Source: Capnocytophaga sp. (lineage in GTDB: Bacteria > Bacteroidota > Bacteroidia > Flavobacteriales > Flavobacteriaceae). Taken from it: a stretch of DNA of 32,092 bases. The notes under the pieces are model-generated. The model saw only the letters and a program-made list of their open reading frames with translations. It searched no databases and was not told where the DNA came from. The first letter of the stretch is position 1, and the number at the start of each line of letters is the position of its first letter. Position numbers and translations under genes: made by a program. Shown one piece after another: positions 23,198 through 31,790 of the stretch. Where the stretch lies: NCBI GenBank assembly GCA_030530525.1, contig JAUMUT010000023.1:1-32092 (forward strand). Direction: 5' to 3'.

Positions 23198-26100
23198 TTA
23201 GTTTTTTACAAATTTTAGCTTGCAAATTTTTGTTAAATAGGATTGTTGGGCTACAGCTCTTTTCTCATCGTCTGGAATGATAGCTGTTATTTCTCGTTTT
23301 GGCTCACTGATGGTTAAAAGGAATGCCAATTGCCCGTAATCATCACATTCTAAGGTAATTGCTTCTTTTTTTGGTAATTCTTCATTGAGTTGTAAATACA
23401 TTTCTCGTGTTTTTGTATATTCTTTTCGTACTATTTTTCTAATAGAATTTTCCATATACAAATAATTGAGCATCAGTTTTTCTTTGAAATAATCGACATC
23501 TTCCAATTCTTTTCTTATTTGTGAGAATTGCTCACGAAAGTAAGCGTTTATTTTTTTACATCTTTCAGAATAATTTCCTCCAAAAGTATTGTTTTTCAAC
23601 GAAATAGGCTCACCAGAAACGACAACAGAATGCCCGTGATAGATTATAAAATCTCCTTTCGGGTTAGTTTGTGCATTGCCGTGAATGTATATCGGGACAA
23701 TATCCAAGCCTAACTGCTCGGCAAGGTAAAATGCCCCTTTATGAAACCTGCCAATAGCATTGGTAGCCGAGCGCGTTCCCTCTGGGAAAATAACAATAGA
23801 AACGCCTTCTTCTATGTTTTTCTGGAAAATAGGCAAGCCTTCTTCCACGCCTTTGGAAGCAGGAAAACCTCCCAATTTTTGTACATATTTACCAAAAATA
23901 GGCGAATTATACACCCAATCATTTACAATATAACTCGTTTGAGGCGAAATCATTCCCATCACCAACGTATCCAACCACGAAGTATGATTGGCTATGAATA
24001 TCACGGGTTTATCCAAAGAAATATTAGCTCTGTTAATATATTTTTTCTTAACAAAAGGATTGGTTGCCAACACCGAAACGAAAAATTTTGCAGATAAAAT
24101 CCGAATCCATTTCACAGATTTTGGGCTAATCTTTATTAAAATATTTCCTAAATTGGATAAAATAAAACTTCCTATTCCGTAATACGCTATGGACAGACAA
24201 GAAATAAGCGAATAGACAAGCGTAGTAGGAGAAATTCCCTTGCGTGGCCTGTTGAAAATGAACCACTTATATATCGCAGGATACATAATAAAAGTAATTA
24301 GCAAAGCCGATGAAAGCCCTATCAAAGAAACACTTGCAATAGACTGTAAAGCAGGATGTTTGGCAAAAATTAACGTTCCGATAGCCAATAAAGTCGTTAT
24401 ACAAGCCAATAAAACCGATACTTTGTAAGTTGGCAAGTCATCTTTGCCGTATGTATATTGTTTTTGCAAGGCGCAACTCATAAAAATACTAAAATCCACC
24501 GCGTGCCCAAGCACCAATGTACAAACAATCATACTAAAAACGTTAAATTCAATTCCTAACCAATACATCAGGGCTGAACTCACTACGGTAGTTGCCAAAA
24601 TGGGACTAAAAGTAAGCAAAACCAATTCTATTCGCTTAAAATATAGGAATAAAATAAAAATAACGGCAATAGAAGAATAACTTGCCAAACTTAGTACGTT
24701 GTCTTTTAGTTCGCCAAGAAACGTTTCGTTAAGATTTTTTCTATCAATTACAACAAATTGATTTTCAAGATTTTGAATAATTTTCTCTCGTTGTGAAATA
24801 TCTATTTTTAATAAATTTCCGATAGTAAAAAAATTATTTTTTTCGGAAATAAAATCGGATAAAGGTATGGCTGCCAATTCTTTATATTCGTCCAAGCTAT
24901 GTATTGGCTGAAAAGATTTTTGTAAATGCTCAAAAAACATTTGGTAAGTAGAGGGTTTGAAGCCTATTTCTTCTCCTAAACTAACAAACTGATTTTCAAT
25001 GTTTTGAACAGAATGTTTTTGCCAGAAATTATTCCATCGGTGTATTCTTTTTTGTTGTTCATCTTGTGAAAAAATTAAATTTCCAACGGAAGAAAATTGT
25101 TTAATATCCCCTTTTTCTTTAAGAGAAGAAAGATTTTGATACAAAATTTCATTTTTTTGTAAGGCTTCTTCCAAAGAATTTCCGTAAGCCACCGCATAAA
25201 TAGATTTGTACTTATCATCGGTCAAATTTTCTAATTTATGTTGCGCAGAAAGGTAATTCTCTGGCATATAATTCATTGAAGAAATATCGCTATTAAAATG
25301 TACTTTCCCGAAGAAAAAAAGACTAACGACAATAAGCAAAGCTCCACTAAAAATAAGAATTTTCTTTTGGTGATATGGATAAGCTGCCATTTTGTCTATC
25401 AGGGTTTTACGAGCCATTACTCCTTTTTTTCCTCTGTACAGATGCGGTATGAGAATAAGAGCAAAAAGAGCGGAAACCATTATCCCGATGCTGGCAAAAA
25501 CACCCAAATCGTTCATTACTTCGGATTGTGTAAATAACAAACAAAAAAAGGAAATTGCTGTGGTAGAGCTACTTAGCAAAATAGGATTGGTTACTATTTT
25601 GTAAAGCCCAGCGGTTGTGTTGGCGTGATTATAGTGCGTGAGAATATGCAAAGAATAATCTACCGTAACACCAAGCAAAACCGCACCAATGCTGATAGAA
25701 ATCGCCGAGATACTTCCTTTGAAAAAATATAAAAAAGCAAGGGCAGCAAGCACACCTAACAACGAAGGAATAAAAGCTATGAGCGGAACAAAAATATTTT
25801 GATAGAAGAAAGCCAAAATCAAATACAACACCACCAACGAAATAACTACGGTAGTTAAAATATCCGTTTTTATCTGGTGCGCATTGGCAACAGCCAGCAA
25901 AGCCGAGCCGAAAAAATCAACTTGAATATTTGGATATTTTTCTTGTATTTTATTTTGTAAATGTGATAATTTTTCGGCAAAAATAGCGTTATGTTCCGTT
26001 TCGTTTCCTGTGTATTTTGGAGAAATAAAAAAGAGAATTTCCTTTTTATCTTTTGCGGTAAGGAAGCCGTCTATTAATGTTAAATTGGAAGAAACGTTAA

Positions 26101-26653
26101 GGTTTTGCAACTTTTTTAACCCGTTGAATGTCAGCCCGAAAGGGTCTTTACGAATAAAATTTTGAGCTACAATACCCGATGGCGAAAGCATAGTTCTGTA
26201 ATGGGCTTTTATCATCGTAGCCAAGCTATCTTTTTCTAAACGATATGTTAATTCTTGATAATCTTTTTCTTCCAAAAACAAAGGAAGGTGTTCGTAGATA
26301 AAATCCCAAGAATTTGAAATTAACGTATCATTAACAATTCCTTGTATTTGAGAAATATAATTAGAAAAATTAGCAGTTAATTCTTCGTTTATTTCCGAAG
26401 CAACTTCTTGTAATTCAGCAAGTTCTGTATTTTCATTTCCTTGAATAATTACAGAAATTTTATCTGAAAAATTAAGTTGTTTTATTACTTTGGAAGTAAT
26501 AGAAGTTTTTTGGTTTTGCGGTAATACTTTGGAAATATCTTCCTGAAATTGAATTTTGGAAGAAGCCCATATTAAAAATAAAAAAATAATCCCAATTCCT
26601 AAAAATGAACTCCATTTATTTTTGGATATAAATGTATAAATAGCAACTAACAT
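23198..26653 (-). CDS. MMPL-family exporter fused to PlsC-like acyltransferase
   Basis: I place the start at ATG 26653 (MLVAIYTF), which begins the first membrane helix, giving 1151 aa. Residues 1 to about 850 form an RND/MMPL-type transporter with two halves. Each has a large periplasmic loop and a cluster of hydrophobic helices (for example VVISLVVLYLILAFFY and SIAVIFILFLYFKR). Then comes a glycerol-phosphate acyltransferase domain with HX4D in NHTSWLD (His890, Asp895) and FPEGTRS (956-962). The last 100 residues look like a truncated methyltransferase. In flavobacterial flexirubin clusters this protein exists as a transporter/acyltransferase/methyltransferase fusion, from memory. It is thought to move or acylate the pigment at the membrane. 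It is the only MMPL protein here and follows the dnd operon by 97 bases. Confidence 0.9.
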   Translation of the reverse strand: MLVAIYTFISKNKWSSFLGIGIIFLFLIWASSKIQFQEDISKVLPQNQKTSITSKVIKQLNFSDKISVIIQGNENTELAELQEVASEINEELTANFSNYISQIQGIVNDTLISNSWDFIYEHLPLFLEEKDYQELTYRLEKDSLATMIKAHYRTMLSPSGIVAQNFIRKDPFGLTFNGLKKLQNLNVSSNLTLIDGFLTAKDKKEILFFISPKYTGNETEHNAIFAEKLSHLQNKIQEKYPNIQVDFFGSALLAVANAHQIKTDILTTVVISLVVLYLILAFFYQNIFVPLIAFIPSLLGVLAALAFLYFFKGSISAISISIGAVLLGVTVDYSLHILTHYNHANTTAGLYKIVTNPILLSSSTTAISFFCLLFTQSEVMNDLGVFASIGIMVSALFALILIPHLYRGKKGVMARKTLIDKMAAYPYHQKKILIFSGALLIVVSLFFFGKVHFNSDISSMNYMPENYLSAQHKLENLTDDKYKSIYAVAYGNSLEEALQKNEILYQNLSSLKEKGDIKQFSSVGNLIFSQDEQQKRIHRWNNFWQKHSVQNIENQFVSLGEEIGFKPSTYQMFFEHLQKSFQPIHSLDEYKELAAIPLSDFISEKNNFFTIGNLLKIDISQREKIIQNLENQFVVIDRKNLNETFLGELKDNVLSLASYSSIAVIFILFLYFKRIELVLLTFSPILATTVVSSALMYWLGIEFNVFSMIVCTLVLGHAVDFSIFMSCALQKQYTYGKDDLPTYKVSVLLACITTLLAIGTLIFAKHPALQSIASVSLIGLSSALLITFIMYPAIYKWFIFNRPRKGISPTTLVYSLISCLSIAYYGIGSFILSNLGNILIKISPKSVKWIRILSAKFFVSVLATNPFVKKKYINRANISLDKPVIFIANHTSWLDTLVMGMISPQTSYIVNDWVYNSPIFGKYVQKLGGFPASKGVEEGLPIFQKNIEEGVSIVIFPEGTRSATNAIGRFHKGAFYLAEQLGLDIVPIYIHGNAQTNPKGDFIIYHGHSVVVSGEPISLKNNTFGGNYSERCKKINAYFREQFSQIRKELEDVDYFKEKLMLNYLYMENSIRKIVRKEYTKTREMYLQLNEELPKKEAITLECDDYGQLAFLLTISEPKREITAIIPDDEKRAVAQQSYLTKICKLKFVKN

Positions 26654-26750: not shown

Positions 26751-28295
26751 TTATTTTGTATTAAATATTTTACCAAAATCAAACTCTCGTATATTGCTTA
26801 TTGCCTGGCGAGGTTTTATATTTTCCATAGAGCGATTGATAATAGTTTGTTGTTTTTCACCTGCTCCTAAGAATTTACGAATAGAACGCCAATTATTACC
26901 GTCTTTTATTTGCATTAAAAATGCTGATTGACACAGTTCTGAGAAATCAAAATCTCGCTGATTAAACTCTTCTATACCTTGGGAAACAAGCATTACAGCC
27001 ACTCCTTGAGAACGGACTTCACGCAATAATTTTTCTAATATTTCTTGTGATTTGGTTTCCTTAAAAACATTATGAGCTTCATCTATTAATAAAACATATC
27101 TAAGCCCACTATAATTATTTTCGTTAGGAGTTTTATCCATATTCATAAAAATATTATATAGATAATAGATTACTAAAAAAGTTGCGGTAAACCTAACCTC
27201 TTTACTCAAATCCCCTGATAGGCTCAAGTAATAGTTATCGTTAATAAAGTCTCCTAATTTACTATTATCAAATAAATCCACTTCTGTAAGACCTATTAAA
27301 ATTTGTGTAAGAGATGTAGGCTTATCACCAGCTATTTCATATACATTTTCTAAAACATCGTTTAGAGAGGGATAAGAGCCATCTTTTTTGTTATCAAATG
27401 CTCTTTTGGTAGCATCTTTTAAGAGCTGTTTTTGTACCTTGCCCAAATTAGCATATTTATCAATAATATCCACAAATCTACCAATACCCACCAATTTATC
27501 TTTTTCATTTATATTATTGATAAATGATAATGGATTGACAGGAAAAGAATCGGTAGGAGTATCTATTAATTTAGCATTGGTTTGAGCAAAAAACTCTTTA
27601 TTTTCTTTATTCTTCTTATCGCTTTCAGTCATTCCTTTAAAATCTAAATAAAGGAAATTAACCTTACCTTCCGTTTCTTTTACTATTCGTTGGAGTATAT
27701 TCCTTGCAAAATAAGATTTCCCTGTTCCTGATTGCCCTGCTATTGCTATGTGGCAATTACTGTACAAACTTGTATCATTAGGAGTAAAATAAATTTCTTT
27801 TCCATTACTTTCTCCTATCCATATTTTAATAGGAGCTATACAATAATCTTTTTCTTTTATATGATTATTCTTATTTTTTGCATAGCCAAAACTATCCTCA
27901 TCTATCATATTTTCAATTCCTTCTTCTACACTATCTAATAGAAACTCCATTCCTAATATATTTTTATTCTCCTCAAAGATTTTATTTAATAGTTCCAATC
28001 CGTTGTCAATATGCCATTTTAGATATTTTTTAACATCAATACTATCTTTATGTATTTTATATTTTTGACAAACTAATGAAATATAGTATTCTCTGTAATT
28101 ACCAAATAGAGTAGCATCTTTATATTCTTTTTGTTTGTCAGAGGCTGGATATTCTTTTTTTTCGTCATACATTGACTTTACTAATGAATACGCCAATGCG
28201 ATTCGGGCTATGTGATTCTCTTCGCCCAATCCCATCGAATTAGTAAGTTTTTTAACGAGTTCAGAAGATGTCTTTATATTAAAATTCGTTTGCAT
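26751..28295 (-). CDS. DndE-HerA fusion: DndE-like domain joined to HerA/FtsK-type ATPase
   Basis: This 514-aa protein is the third gene of the Dnd operon. I use ATG 28295, because the longer frame to 28313 begins with TTG. Residues 1 to about 125 resemble DndE, the small DNA-binding protein of DNA phosphorothioation. The clues are HIARIALAYSLV (28-39) and LFGNYREYYISLVCQ (63-77), then KWHIDNGLELL. Residues 180-514 are a hexameric-ATPase domain of the HerA/VirB4/FtsK class: Walker A GQSGTGKS (187-194), Walker B VLLIDEAHNVF (401-411), sensor LVSQG (436-440). Canonical DndE is only about 110-130 aa and has no ATPase. Its start overlaps the dndD stop by 17 bases. The DndE assignment is from pattern, without a search. 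Confidence 0.82.
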   Translation of the reverse strand: MQTNFNIKTSSELVKKLTNSMGLGEENHIARIALAYSLVKSMYDEKKEYPASDKQKEYKDATLFGNYREYYISLVCQKYKIHKDSIDVKKYLKWHIDNGLELLNKIFEENKNILGMEFLLDSVEEGIENMIDEDSFGYAKNKNNHIKEKDYCIAPIKIWIGESNGKEIYFTPNDTSLYSNCHIAIAGQSGTGKSYFARNILQRIVKETEGKVNFLYLDFKGMTESDKKNKENKEFFAQTNAKLIDTPTDSFPVNPLSFINNINEKDKLVGIGRFVDIIDKYANLGKVQKQLLKDATKRAFDNKKDGSYPSLNDVLENVYEIAGDKPTSLTQILIGLTEVDLFDNSKLGDFINDNYYLSLSGDLSKEVRFTATFLVIYYLYNIFMNMDKTPNENNYSGLRYVLLIDEAHNVFKETKSQEILEKLLREVRSQGVAVMLVSQGIEEFNQRDFDFSELCQSAFLMQIKDGNNWRSIRKFLGAGEKQQTIINRSMENIKPRQAISNIREFDFGKIFNTK

Positions 28296-30384
28296 TTTGA
28301 TATTCTTTTTCAAATATTGGGAACAAATCTTCCTTATTTTCTACAGGTTGAAAAGATGATTTGTTTTTTTCATTTTTTATTAGATACGTTTTGCTGATAT
28401 TAGGAAGCAGTATATTATATTCCGTTTCTGTCATTTCTTTTTTTAACAATGGGAATATAATAACTTGTTCTGACACCTTTGGATAAAAATACTTGACGAT
28501 ACTATTTGAATGGTCAATATCAAATTTCTGCATTGGAGAATCTATAAATACAGGGAAACTAATATTAGATTCATCAACTAATCCTTTCAGAAGTGTGGTG
28601 GCGTATAGTTGTTGCTCTCCTTTTGAGAAAGTATCTTTGTTTATATATTTATTTCTTTTGTCTTTTAGCTCAATATCCACCATATCTCCTATAATTTTAA
28701 TTTCTACTTTTTTCACAAAATCTTTTTTATGCAAAAGCATATTTAGCCCATCTTCTATTCTTTTTTCAAGTGATTTTGATTTTTCTCTCTTAAAAGTTTC
28801 TATGAAATTTTTCAAAATTTGGATAGTTTTTTCTACTTCTTCCCCAACCGCAAGATTTTCCTTGCTTAATTCCAACTTTTCATTAATGCTATTAGCTCTC
28901 TTTGTTTGTTGCAATATAAAATTATCATTTTCTTGTATTTTTTGCTTTTTACCCCCTATTAGTTGCTGGTTTTCATCATATTTGTCTTGAAATTCTTTTT
29001 TCTTTTCTCTATCCGCCTTAGCCAAAGGATCTTCTGATTTTTCTTCAGCCAAACGAACTTTCTTATTAATTTCATTTTGTTCATTTTTGGCACGAGTAAA
29101 ATTCATATGGATATTACTTAATTTTTCTTTAAATGATAGTTTTATATTATCTGCAAATTGTTTTAAGCTGGCTGTTTCACTTTCAGAGTAATTATGTATT
29201 ATATTTACTTCCTCTATTTTCTGTTGTTCTTCTGTTCCAAAATATTTTTTAAACAGTAATTGTAGATTTTCCACATAGAATTTTTGTACATTGTAAGGTA
29301 TTTGAATATTATCAGGCCTTTCTATATTTATAAGTTCATCAATTATTTTGGAGGAAATCTCTTCTGTTTTATCTTTATCATAACTTCTATTGATAAAATT
29401 TCTTTCTTTAGAAACTTGATCTAATACTTCTACTAAAAGCTCTCCTGTTATAGCAAAAGGTATTGTTTCAAAATGATTTTTTAACTCACTTTGTAAATTA
29501 TCTACCTTTTTTTCTAATTCTTCTTTTCTATCTCTTAACTCTTTTAGTTTTTCTTCCGTTATAATATTTCCGTTTTTAATTAATTTTTCTTCTAATGAAG
29601 ATATATTACTTTTCAGCAAAGAAGAATCGTCCTCTAAGTCTTCTATTTCCTTTTGGATTTCGGCATTTTCGTTCTTTTTCTCTTTTATATCAATATCTAT
29701 TCTTTCTAATTCTGTACGTTCTTTATGCGAAGCAGTTTCTTCTTTAAGTTTGTTTAAATAGTTTATTAAATCATCTTTTAAGTCTTGATATTTCTTTATT
29801 CCTAACACTTCCACATAAGCTCTACTTAAATTTTTTTGCTGTTCTTCTGTATGAATTTCTGCCAAGGAAACTATTTTTTCAGCATCAAAAAAGAAAAATT
29901 TGGCAATTTCCTTAGGCATTATAAAATCACGAATAAAATTTTCTTTTCCTACTTCTTCTACCAATTCACTCGGCGTTCCATCAATTAAGATTTCTAATTC
30001 TTCTTCTTGTGAGCCTTCAGTATAATATGTCCTTGTTATTTTAAGTTCATCACAATCTATTTCAGGAATTGTCTTAACATTAGCAAAAGTTATTGCTACG
30101 GAAAAAGTTGTAGAGCCTTCCTCACTTGCGGTGTGGTTCAAACTATTTCTAATATATTTTTTGTAATTGCCATTATTTCCTATTTCGCGCTTGTATATTT
30201 CATCAACATCACTCATTTGCCTGCCATACAAACACCAAACCAATGACATTAAGAAAGTAGTTTTCCCAAAGCCATTTTTCCCACTTATGATTACAATATT
30301 TTCTTTATCTGTTACAGATAAATCTATTTTATGATAACCTTTATATATTCTAAAATTATTTAATTCAATGGATTGGATAATCAT
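28279..30384 (-). CDS. dndD: DndD, SMC-like ATPase of DNA phosphorothioation
   Basis: This 701-aa protein has a split ABC-type ATPase: Walker A GKNGFGKTT (35-43), then a long coiled-coil arm (about aa 195-560, with heptads such as LKELRDRKEELEKKVDNLQSEL in part), and then the signature FSKGEQQ (586-592) and Walker B FPVFID (610-615) followed by SPMQKFD. This is the Rad50/SMC layout of DndD, which is thought to open or nick DNA so that sulfur can be inserted. No Rad50 CxxC hook was seen. It starts with an ATGA overlap with dndC (30381-30384) and is overlapped by the DndE-HerA gene at its end, so all three are probably made in fixed ratio. The family's normal length is about 660 aa. Confidence 0.9.
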   Translation of the reverse strand: MIIQSIELNNFRIYKGYHKIDLSVTDKENIVIISGKNGFGKTTFLMSLVWCLYGRQMSDVDEIYKREIGNNGNYKKYIRNSLNHTASEEGSTTFSVAITFANVKTIPEIDCDELKITRTYYTEGSQEEELEILIDGTPSELVEEVGKENFIRDFIMPKEIAKFFFFDAEKIVSLAEIHTEEQQKNLSRAYVEVLGIKKYQDLKDDLINYLNKLKEETASHKERTELERIDIDIKEKKNENAEIQKEIEDLEDDSSLLKSNISSLEEKLIKNGNIITEEKLKELRDRKEELEKKVDNLQSELKNHFETIPFAITGELLVEVLDQVSKERNFINRSYDKDKTEEISSKIIDELINIERPDNIQIPYNVQKFYVENLQLLFKKYFGTEEQQKIEEVNIIHNYSESETASLKQFADNIKLSFKEKLSNIHMNFTRAKNEQNEINKKVRLAEEKSEDPLAKADREKKKEFQDKYDENQQLIGGKKQKIQENDNFILQQTKRANSINEKLELSKENLAVGEEVEKTIQILKNFIETFKREKSKSLEKRIEDGLNMLLHKKDFVKKVEIKIIGDMVDIELKDKRNKYINKDTFSKGEQQLYATTLLKGLVDESNISFPVFIDSPMQKFDIDHSNSIVKYFYPKVSEQVIIFPLLKKEMTETEYNILLPNISKTYLIKNEKNKSSFQPVENKEDLFPIFEKEYQNANEF

Positions 30385-31724
30385 ACGGCTGTAATATATT
30401 GTTTATAACGTTTTTCTATACTTTCTATAAGGCCTTTTCTCTTTACCATCAATGTTTTAGATTTCTCTAATTTCAATAAATCTTGTATAAGAGAAAACTG
30501 CTTTTTATCCTCTTTGCACGATGATAATAAAAGTTTTTCTTCTTTTTGAATTTGTTCGTTATATTGTTTCATATCTATATCCTTATTAAAAACTTTATTA
30601 TATATACTAGAAACTGTTTTTTCAAAATATAAATCCCGATACCAAATCACTTGAATAGCTATTAATTCTTGTTTATTAATAAGCTCCACATTGTAACCTA
30701 ATTCATTGATTTGCTTCTGTGCTTCAAATACCTTTTCCAATATTTCAGCCCGATGCTCAATTACTACATATCCACCATTAGGAATAGCAGCCAAAGAGCC
30801 ATCTCTCCTATAATCAGAACGATTTTTAGGCTTATTTCTTTCTTCCTGAATCCAATTTCTCAAATCTCTCAAAGGAATCAACCATTTATGCCCATTCTCT
30901 ATCTGTGCCGAAATGGATTTGTCTTGCTTTACCACAGTACAAGTCCAACAGCCAAACCTACTTTGCCCACAAGATTTATGTTCCTTATCAGAAACCATTG
31001 TCGGGCATTCATAATCATCAGCACTTGCATCTGCATATATATCAAACAACTCTTTATTATCTGCTCCCCAAGGAGATTTAAAAGTATTTATAATATACCA
31101 TACTTCTTCTAATTCCAATTCTTTTATAGGAGAATAAACAAAAACATTATTCTGCAAAGGATGTTTGGTAAGTCTTTTACCTCTTATTTCGTGCTTTTTT
31201 ATAGATTTTGCTCTTGTTATACTTTCACTCTTTCTTGTTCCAACTAATATAATAGCTTCGTGGTAATCATTTTCTTCACTCTTTACAATGTCTGAAACAA
31301 ATTTTGCAGTAGGTTTTATTTTTAACCGCTCTGTACACCATCTGAAACTATTATTAGGAGCAGGATAGCCTTTTCCTATAAGATTTACGAAAAAAGAATC
31401 TTCCAATCTTGGAATTGTTTTACGAACTTTTATAGGCAAAGCGTATTTCAAAGCTGCATCGGCTATTTTTTCCAATACCTTATTCACATAATTTGTAATA
31501 ATCGGATTCTCTACTAATGTATCATTACAAACTACATAAATTTCTCTTTTTAAAAATTCTTTCCCCAGTTCATTCTTGATTTTCAAAATAGCCAACCAAG
31601 TTAATGTCAATAATACTGTAGAATCCTTTCCTCCACTAAAACCTATTATCCAAGGTCTATTATTATCTTCTATAATATATTGATCCGCTATTTCATCTAT
31701 TATGTAATTTATTTTTTTACTCAT
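30381..31724 (-). CDS. dndC: DndC, PAPS-reductase-like sulfur-transfer protein
   Basis: I choose the ATG at 31724 (MSKKINYI), giving 447 aa. The frame stays open to 31763, but the extra residues (MWLGNIIPRIFFI) look like read-through leader. The protein has a PP-loop SGGKDST (30-36) of the PAPS reductase/ATP pyrophosphatase superfamily, RWCTERLK (128-135) and four cysteines likely to bind an iron-sulfur cluster: Cys240, Cys252, Cys259 and Cys262 (CGQSRFGCWTC). In the Dnd system this protein activates the DNA phosphate or sulfur source using ATP, with sulfur supplied by the cysteine desulfurase DndA or by IscS. No dndA is near, so a chromosomal desulfurase would have to act. The signature is clear and dndD follows directly. 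Confidence 0.92.
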   Translation of the reverse strand: MSKKINYIIDEIADQYIIEDNNRPWIIGFSGGKDSTVLLTLTWLAILKIKNELGKEFLKREIYVVCNDTLVENPIITNYVNKVLEKIADAALKYALPIKVRKTIPRLEDSFFVNLIGKGYPAPNNSFRWCTERLKIKPTAKFVSDIVKSEENDYHEAIILVGTRKSESITRAKSIKKHEIRGKRLTKHPLQNNVFVYSPIKELELEEVWYIINTFKSPWGADNKELFDIYADASADDYECPTMVSDKEHKSCGQSRFGCWTCTVVKQDKSISAQIENGHKWLIPLRDLRNWIQEERNKPKNRSDYRRDGSLAAIPNGGYVVIEHRAEILEKVFEAQKQINELGYNVELINKQELIAIQVIWYRDLYFEKTVSSIYNKVFNKDIDMKQYNEQIQKEEKLLLSSCKEDKKQFSLIQDLLKLEKSKTLMVKRKGLIESIEKRYKQYITAV

Positions 31725-31790
31725 TATAAAAAATATTCTAGGAATTATATTTCCGAGCCACAAAATAATTTTTAATATTTATAGGTTTTT

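Follow-up and report, generated by a model that had tools for sequence, protein, structure and literature searches.

DndE proteins fused to an ATPase are known from DNA phosphorothioation (PT) systems. According to the title of Zheng et al. 2016 (J Biol Chem), the helicase activity of DndEi is essential for phosphorothioation and its ATPase is stimulated by GAAC/GTTC DNA. Rare dndEi genes with an additional DNA helicase domain are mentioned, in the excerpt available of PMC7464106, among the PT genes of several Bacteroidales strains. The comparative survey of Rakesh, Aravind and Krishnan 2024 (PMC10853773) describes HerA/FtsK domains fused to DndE and, in its excerpted text, assigns them to clade 3 together with some DndH motors.

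The gene studied here lies in the window, i.e. the whole stretch of 32,092 nucleotides of Capnocytophaga DNA that was analyzed. The original prediction regarded its architecture, a DndE-like domain followed by a HerA-type ATPase, as possibly undescribed. This did not hold, since the same fusion has already been reported from other bacteria under the name DndEi and is also described in the excerpts of PMC10853773. The architecture is already known and the window gene, as one more DndEi, is an ordinary member of this type. Like the protein described in the title of Zheng et al. 2016, it combines DndE with a helicase/ATPase. The clade 3 proteins of PMC10853773 have the same architecture and, in the text available, are likewise located beside a DndD-related ABC ATPase.

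Other known systems resemble the window locus in part. Canonical DndE (PDB 7x4e) resembles the N-terminal part of the fusion and, in contrast to the fusion, the stand-alone DndE frames of eight relatives (122-169 aa) have no ATPase. The C-terminal HerA/FtsK ATPase of DndH/DptH resembles the window motor, but DndH proteins comprise about 1,700 aa with many further domains (PADLOC profile lengths; excerpts of PMC10853773), compared to 514 aa in the window. The mad8 protein of the MADS defense system (PADLOC PDLC04140) matches the window ATPase part at 2.8e-19; a difference is that the window operon has dndC and dndD alongside. Adjacent dndC and dndD genes are also what the window has in common with DndABCDE-FGH systems, from which it differs in that its genome yields neither a dndB match nor a separate dndH match. 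The DndEi protein with the essential helicase activity reportedly originates from Riemerella anatipestifer.

Gene order and domain composition of the dndEi operon

The operon is encoded on the minus strand, which the original prediction left unspecified, in the order dndC, dndD, dndEi. The first gene (dndC, 30381..31724) codes for a PP-loop sulfurtransferase with SGGKDS and CWTC motifs, the second (dndD, 28279..30384) for an ABC-type ATPase with a Walker A motif at residue 35 and without a CxC motif. Both exceed the cut-offs of the respective models (TIGR03183, 408.8 versus 290.4 bits; TIGR03185, 271.6 versus 245.85 bits), confirming the predicted compact operon with the fusion in third position. 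The fusion gene itself (dndEi, 26751..28295) encodes 514 aa from the ATG at 28295, downstream of the TTG (28313) with which the mechanical ORF begins. Similarly, the dndC ORF opens at a TTG at 31763, and the ATG at 31724 is the point where most homologs begin aligning. Neighboring genes overlap end to start, with 4 bp shared by dndC and dndD and 17 bp by dndD and dndEi when the latter is counted from its ATG. As read directly from the sequence, all three frames are open and full-length with intact catalytic motifs. The best PADLOC model for the window DndD is PbeC (1.5e-165); a CxC/PbeC identity was rejected because the CxC motif is absent and TIGR03185 passes its cut-off.

The DndE-like N-terminus and the ATPase C-terminal to it were both recovered as predicted. 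Pfam PF08870 (DndE) matches residues 14-114 in TTG numbering (27972..28274, minus strand) with 64.4 bits versus a cut-off of 25 (1.5e-17), and PDB 7x4e DndE matches residues 21-110 (1.4e-4). The NCBIfam DndE equivalog TIGR03184 reaches 39.9 bits (4.6e-10) and stays below its cut-off of 71.85; the region is therefore a DndE domain that is not classed as canonical DndE. In the ATPase part (26844..27803, minus strand), the Pfam families AAA_22, AAA_10, DUF87, FtsK_SpoIIIE, HerA_C and AAA are above their cut-offs, some of them narrowly and over short stretches (HerA_C, DUF87 and FtsK_SpoIIIE just above). The PADLOC DndH model covers residues 75-490 at 5.3e-31, and the best solved-structure match of the motor by sequence is DptH (PDB 7es4, 2.3e-10, residues 171-462). 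The NCBIfam HerA equivalogs score 22 and 17.9 bits, far below their cut-offs of 850 and 800.

Counted from the ATG, the motif positions given in the original prediction are correct, namely Walker A GQSGTGKS at 187-194 (27714..27737, minus strand), Walker B VLLIDE at 401-406 (27078..27095, minus strand) and LVSQG at 436-440. In an alignment of 25 fusions, from which L066 (a duplicate) and L072 (interrupted) were excluded, K199 of Walker A, D411 and E412 of Walker B, the two arginines R431 and R434 as well as Q445, a sensor-1-like glutamine (TTG numbering; R431 to Q445 at 26979..27023, minus strand) are invariant in 25 of 25 sequences. The excerpts of PMC10853773 define the HerA/FtsK clade by Walker A and B, a glutamine sensor-1 and an arginine just before that strand, and all 25 fusions display these features at inferred strand positions. 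A DndE domain and a helicase/ATPase domain thus lie in one chain within a PT gene cluster, the combination that constitutes DndEi. The chain is not a DndH, i.e. a multidomain protein of about 1,700 aa with a REase domain, as it has 514 residues and no nuclease domain in the Pfam scan.

Proposed role of the fusion and its genomic setting

Judged by sequence, the locus is very probably a PT module of the DndEi type, in which DndC, DndD and DndEi form a minimal modification set and the cysteine desulfurase is encoded elsewhere. This PT reading is supported by the domain matches, the invariant catalytic residues of the 25 fusions, the overlaps between the three genes, the search results from the own genome given below and the presence of dndC near the fusion in 18 of the 26 loci compared (window counted). 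The DndE equivalog score below its cut-off and the loci that have the DndD and DndE-HerA pair but no dndC count against it. DndC would act as the sulfurtransferase, with sulfur supplied by that cysteine desulfurase, and DndD as an SMC-like ABC ATPase handling DNA. The DndE part would contact both the target DNA, at a presumed motif, and the DndD-DndC complex. In the next step of this presumed order, the HerA/FtsK motor, probably a ring of several copies, would burn ATP to travel along or open the duplex at the target, and this movement or opening would let the backbone be sulfurated. The need for a helicase in PT is taken here from the title of Zheng et al. 2016.

The original prediction also proposed a role in restriction control. 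In such a case, the fusion would merge modification with restriction, its motor acting as a DndH-like translocase that tests or blocks unmodified DNA. The motor does resemble the C-terminal ATPase of DndH/DptH, PMC10853773 (in excerpt) groups HerA/FtsK domains fused to DndE with some DndH motors in clade 3, and a separate DndH match is missing from the own genome. The merged function is nevertheless improbable, given that the chain carries no detected nuclease part and that the published title ties the DndEi helicase to the making of the modification; for these two reasons it was rejected as the main reading. A further point against it comes from the HerA tree (24 rows), which separates the 20 fused motors from the remaining four rows (three from DndH, one from a 576-aa ATPase), albeit at only 83/88 and with very long branches; its DndH rows are too few for a test of clade 3 as published.

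The assembly of the own genome consists of 76 contigs, with the window as the whole of contig C31. Direct searches of this genome detected eight aminotransferase-V matches, two of which were scanned further over the matched stretch. One is a SufS-like enzyme above its cut-off (545 versus 475.1 bits), the other a NifS/IscS/DndA-like enzyme below the cut-offs on the stretch scanned, and neither is encoded on the window's contig. DndB (PF14072) has no match in the own genome; the same model matched in 2 of 14 control genomes. In the own genome, the DndH model finds the fusion and, beyond that, a single weak stretch of 132 bp; it was also matched in 5 of the 14 control genomes, probably via its ATPase part. 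HNH_2 has no match in the own genome. A minimal operon of three genes in a genome without a DndB match, together with a dndD that is broken or replaced in several relatives, could also be read as a remnant, decaying or silent, that has lost the ability to make PT. However, the three full-length open frames with intact catalytic motifs argue against decay, which is very unlikely for the window copy; as part of a PT module, this copy would be functional.

Past the opening TTG of the dndC ORF, 329 bp of the contig remain, so further upstream genes are possible. Directly downstream of the operon, a gene for an MMPL transporter-acyltransferase fusion is located (23198-26653); its mechanical ORF overlaps dndEi, but when counted from an ATG at 26653 the gene is separated from dndEi by 97 bases. 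In one relative from the genus (G416), the upstream neighbor of the MMPL gene is a divergent gene of 444 residues. The own genome has a copy of the latter (81% identical) on contig C47, in a fitting orientation and with its start 257 bases into the contig. In a second genus relative (G632), no match to the MMPL gene was found. Judging from the neighbor in G416 and the own copy on C47, the operon is probably a small insertion between the MMPL gene and the 444-residue gene, with the assembly broken at one side.

Distribution and neighborhood variants of the fusion

The original prediction suggested counting other genomes with this fusion. In a sample of 395 genomes from the phylum, 20 match the window protein at an E-value of 0.001 or better. 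Five of these matches, own genome included, span both domains, four have a DndE-only best match, and eleven are weaker and mostly cover the ATPase region. In the family sample (299 genomes), 16 match at 1e-20, of which 11 include the ATPase and five DndE only; among the 11 ATPase-bearing proteins, one (genome G521) is without the DndE part and one (G462) has an internal stop. A scan of genome contigs, which detects close relatives only, found 12 loci, nine at 77-79% and three at 49-51% identity, in Chryseobacterium, Flavobacterium, Apibacter, Capnocytophaga, Halomarinibacterium and MAGs. One genome is present in both collections (L010 = L066) and was counted once. The fusion is widespread in Bacteroidota, yet present in a minority of genomes. 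The original prediction named a fusion that is both frequent and already characterized as an argument against it; of the two, the characterization applies.

In the HerA tree, the sister row of the window is a Capnocytophaga MAG (96/97), and the nearest row by path is Flavobacterium salilacus. Rows from Flavobacteriaceae and Weeksellaceae are mixed, which suggests transfer of the fusion between these families. The DndD tree (27 rows, unrooted) places the DndD partners of the eight stand-alone DndEs on one branch (100/99). No origin or direction of the fusion was drawn from the trees, considering the support and branch lengths of the HerA split (83/88, very long branches) and the unrooted DndD tree.

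The genomic neighborhood was compared in 26 loci, including the window and excluding L066 as a copy of L010. The pair of DndD and DndE-HerA is also found without dndC and is thus not tied to sulfur chemistry in general. Six such loci (L063, L064, L070, L071, L072 and L073) encode a multi-HTH protein of 666-737 codons, followed by a DndD-like ATPase and DndE-HerA. All four of the multi-HTH proteins scanned match Sigma70 region 4, and three of them also the HA and RNA polymerase alpha-CTD models; the Pfam cut-offs are missed by several of these matches, including all three in L071. In the phylum sample, the multi-HTH protein has matches in 4 of 395 genomes, and around two of the four (G211 and G160, more distant homologs) the fetched stretch contains neither a DndD nor a DndEi match. 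It is not always tied to DndD-DndEi. In two further loci (L074:2415-12098 and L075:1646-10074), genes for a type I methylase and a specificity subunit are located upstream of dndD and DndE-HerA, identified by domain scan in L074 and by homology in L075. L075 additionally has a frame of 208 codons between the type I genes and the dndD/DndE-HerA pair, and L074 a GmrSD nuclease gene downstream. Among the loci with dndC, seven have a downstream gene in common, which is DndB in the three that were scanned (L004, L011 and L062); L003 and L065 carry other DndB genes. The occurrence of DndD and DndE-HerA with sulfur chemistry, a type I methylase or a multi-HTH protein fits the published idea of a DndD-DndE core that recruits different chemistries.

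Replacement of dndD by an HNH nuclease gene in related loci

Four of the 18 dndC loci (window counted) lack all or part of dndD and carry a gene of about 320 codons for an HNH protein between dndC and dndEi. These loci are from Chryseobacterium candidae (L003, 5113-9563), Flavobacterium piscinae (L006, 5101-9548), a Bacteroidota MAG (L008, 261-6597) and genome G521 (L069, 6650-10383), with HNH_2 matches of 3e-13, 3e-13, 5e-13 and 8e-12, respectively. The L003 protein, the one of the four compared to solved structures, matches the sulfur-binding domain SBDHga1 (8h0l, 1.6e-10) with its N-terminal part; a sulfur-binding-like domain (SBD) is characteristic of nucleases cleaving phosphorothioated DNA. 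L008 has a truncated dndC, with HamA and a DEAD helicase encoded ahead of the HNH gene; the dndEi of L069 is without the DndE part. A stretch upstream of dndC in another locus (L062:5165-5353) is 44% identical to the N-terminal part of the SBD-HNH protein and is perhaps a remnant.

The borders of the exchange coincide in two loci. Compared to the intact relatives L002 and L005, DNA identity of L003 and L006, respectively, breaks off 10 bases short of the dndC end and returns in both at one and the same position, about codon 534 of dndD. The residual dndD of L003 and L006 is without a Walker A motif. The flanks are 86.0 and 93.6% identical between L003 and L002, and 94.9 and 94.4% between L006 and L005. 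The similarity between L003 and L006 continues across the whole exchanged part (89% over 4,465 bases), and L069 resembles L006 from dndC up to that same position in dndD. A single exchange is thus possible, and the shared breakpoints of L003 and L006 may trace to one event that was passed on and not to repeated switching.

Tentatively, these sequences could be read as a switchable defense site in Bacteroidota. Recombination in the flanks provided by dndC and dndEi would swap dndD for a predicted PT-cutting SBD-HNH nuclease, so that mark-making would become mark-destroying and self-cleavage would be avoided. This is possible but rather doubtful. Seven of the eight SBD-HNH matches in the family sample are away from dnd genes, with no DndC, DndD or DndEi match within about 1.7-7 kb, and these proteins are 38-48% identical to that of L003. 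Also counting against a switch, dndC and dndEi stay open in L003 and L006, and the possible descent of these two loci from one exchange lowers its probability somewhat. One genome (G508) holds both an intact dndC-dndD-dndEi operon and a distant SBD-HNH copy, and exclusion is therefore not absolute.

According to the text available of PMC7461809, SBD-HNH genes are not expected together with dnd genes that share their specificity; less than 3.6% of them may be associated with dnd, for which a mutated dnd cluster is suggested as one explanation. Joint expression of dndA-E and ScoMcrA leads to cell death, as stated in the excerpt of PMC3009677. HNH nucleases with SBD and SAD domains tend to lie downstream of dnd genes (PMC10853773, in excerpt), an arrangement that differs from the replacement of dndD between dndC and dndEi. 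No report of such a replacement by SBD-HNH was found in a limited literature search that included excerpts of PMC7461809 and PMC10853773. If functional, the replacement would reveal a way in which PT-making and PT-cutting systems are kept apart, and it supplies named strains in which this avoidance can be tested.
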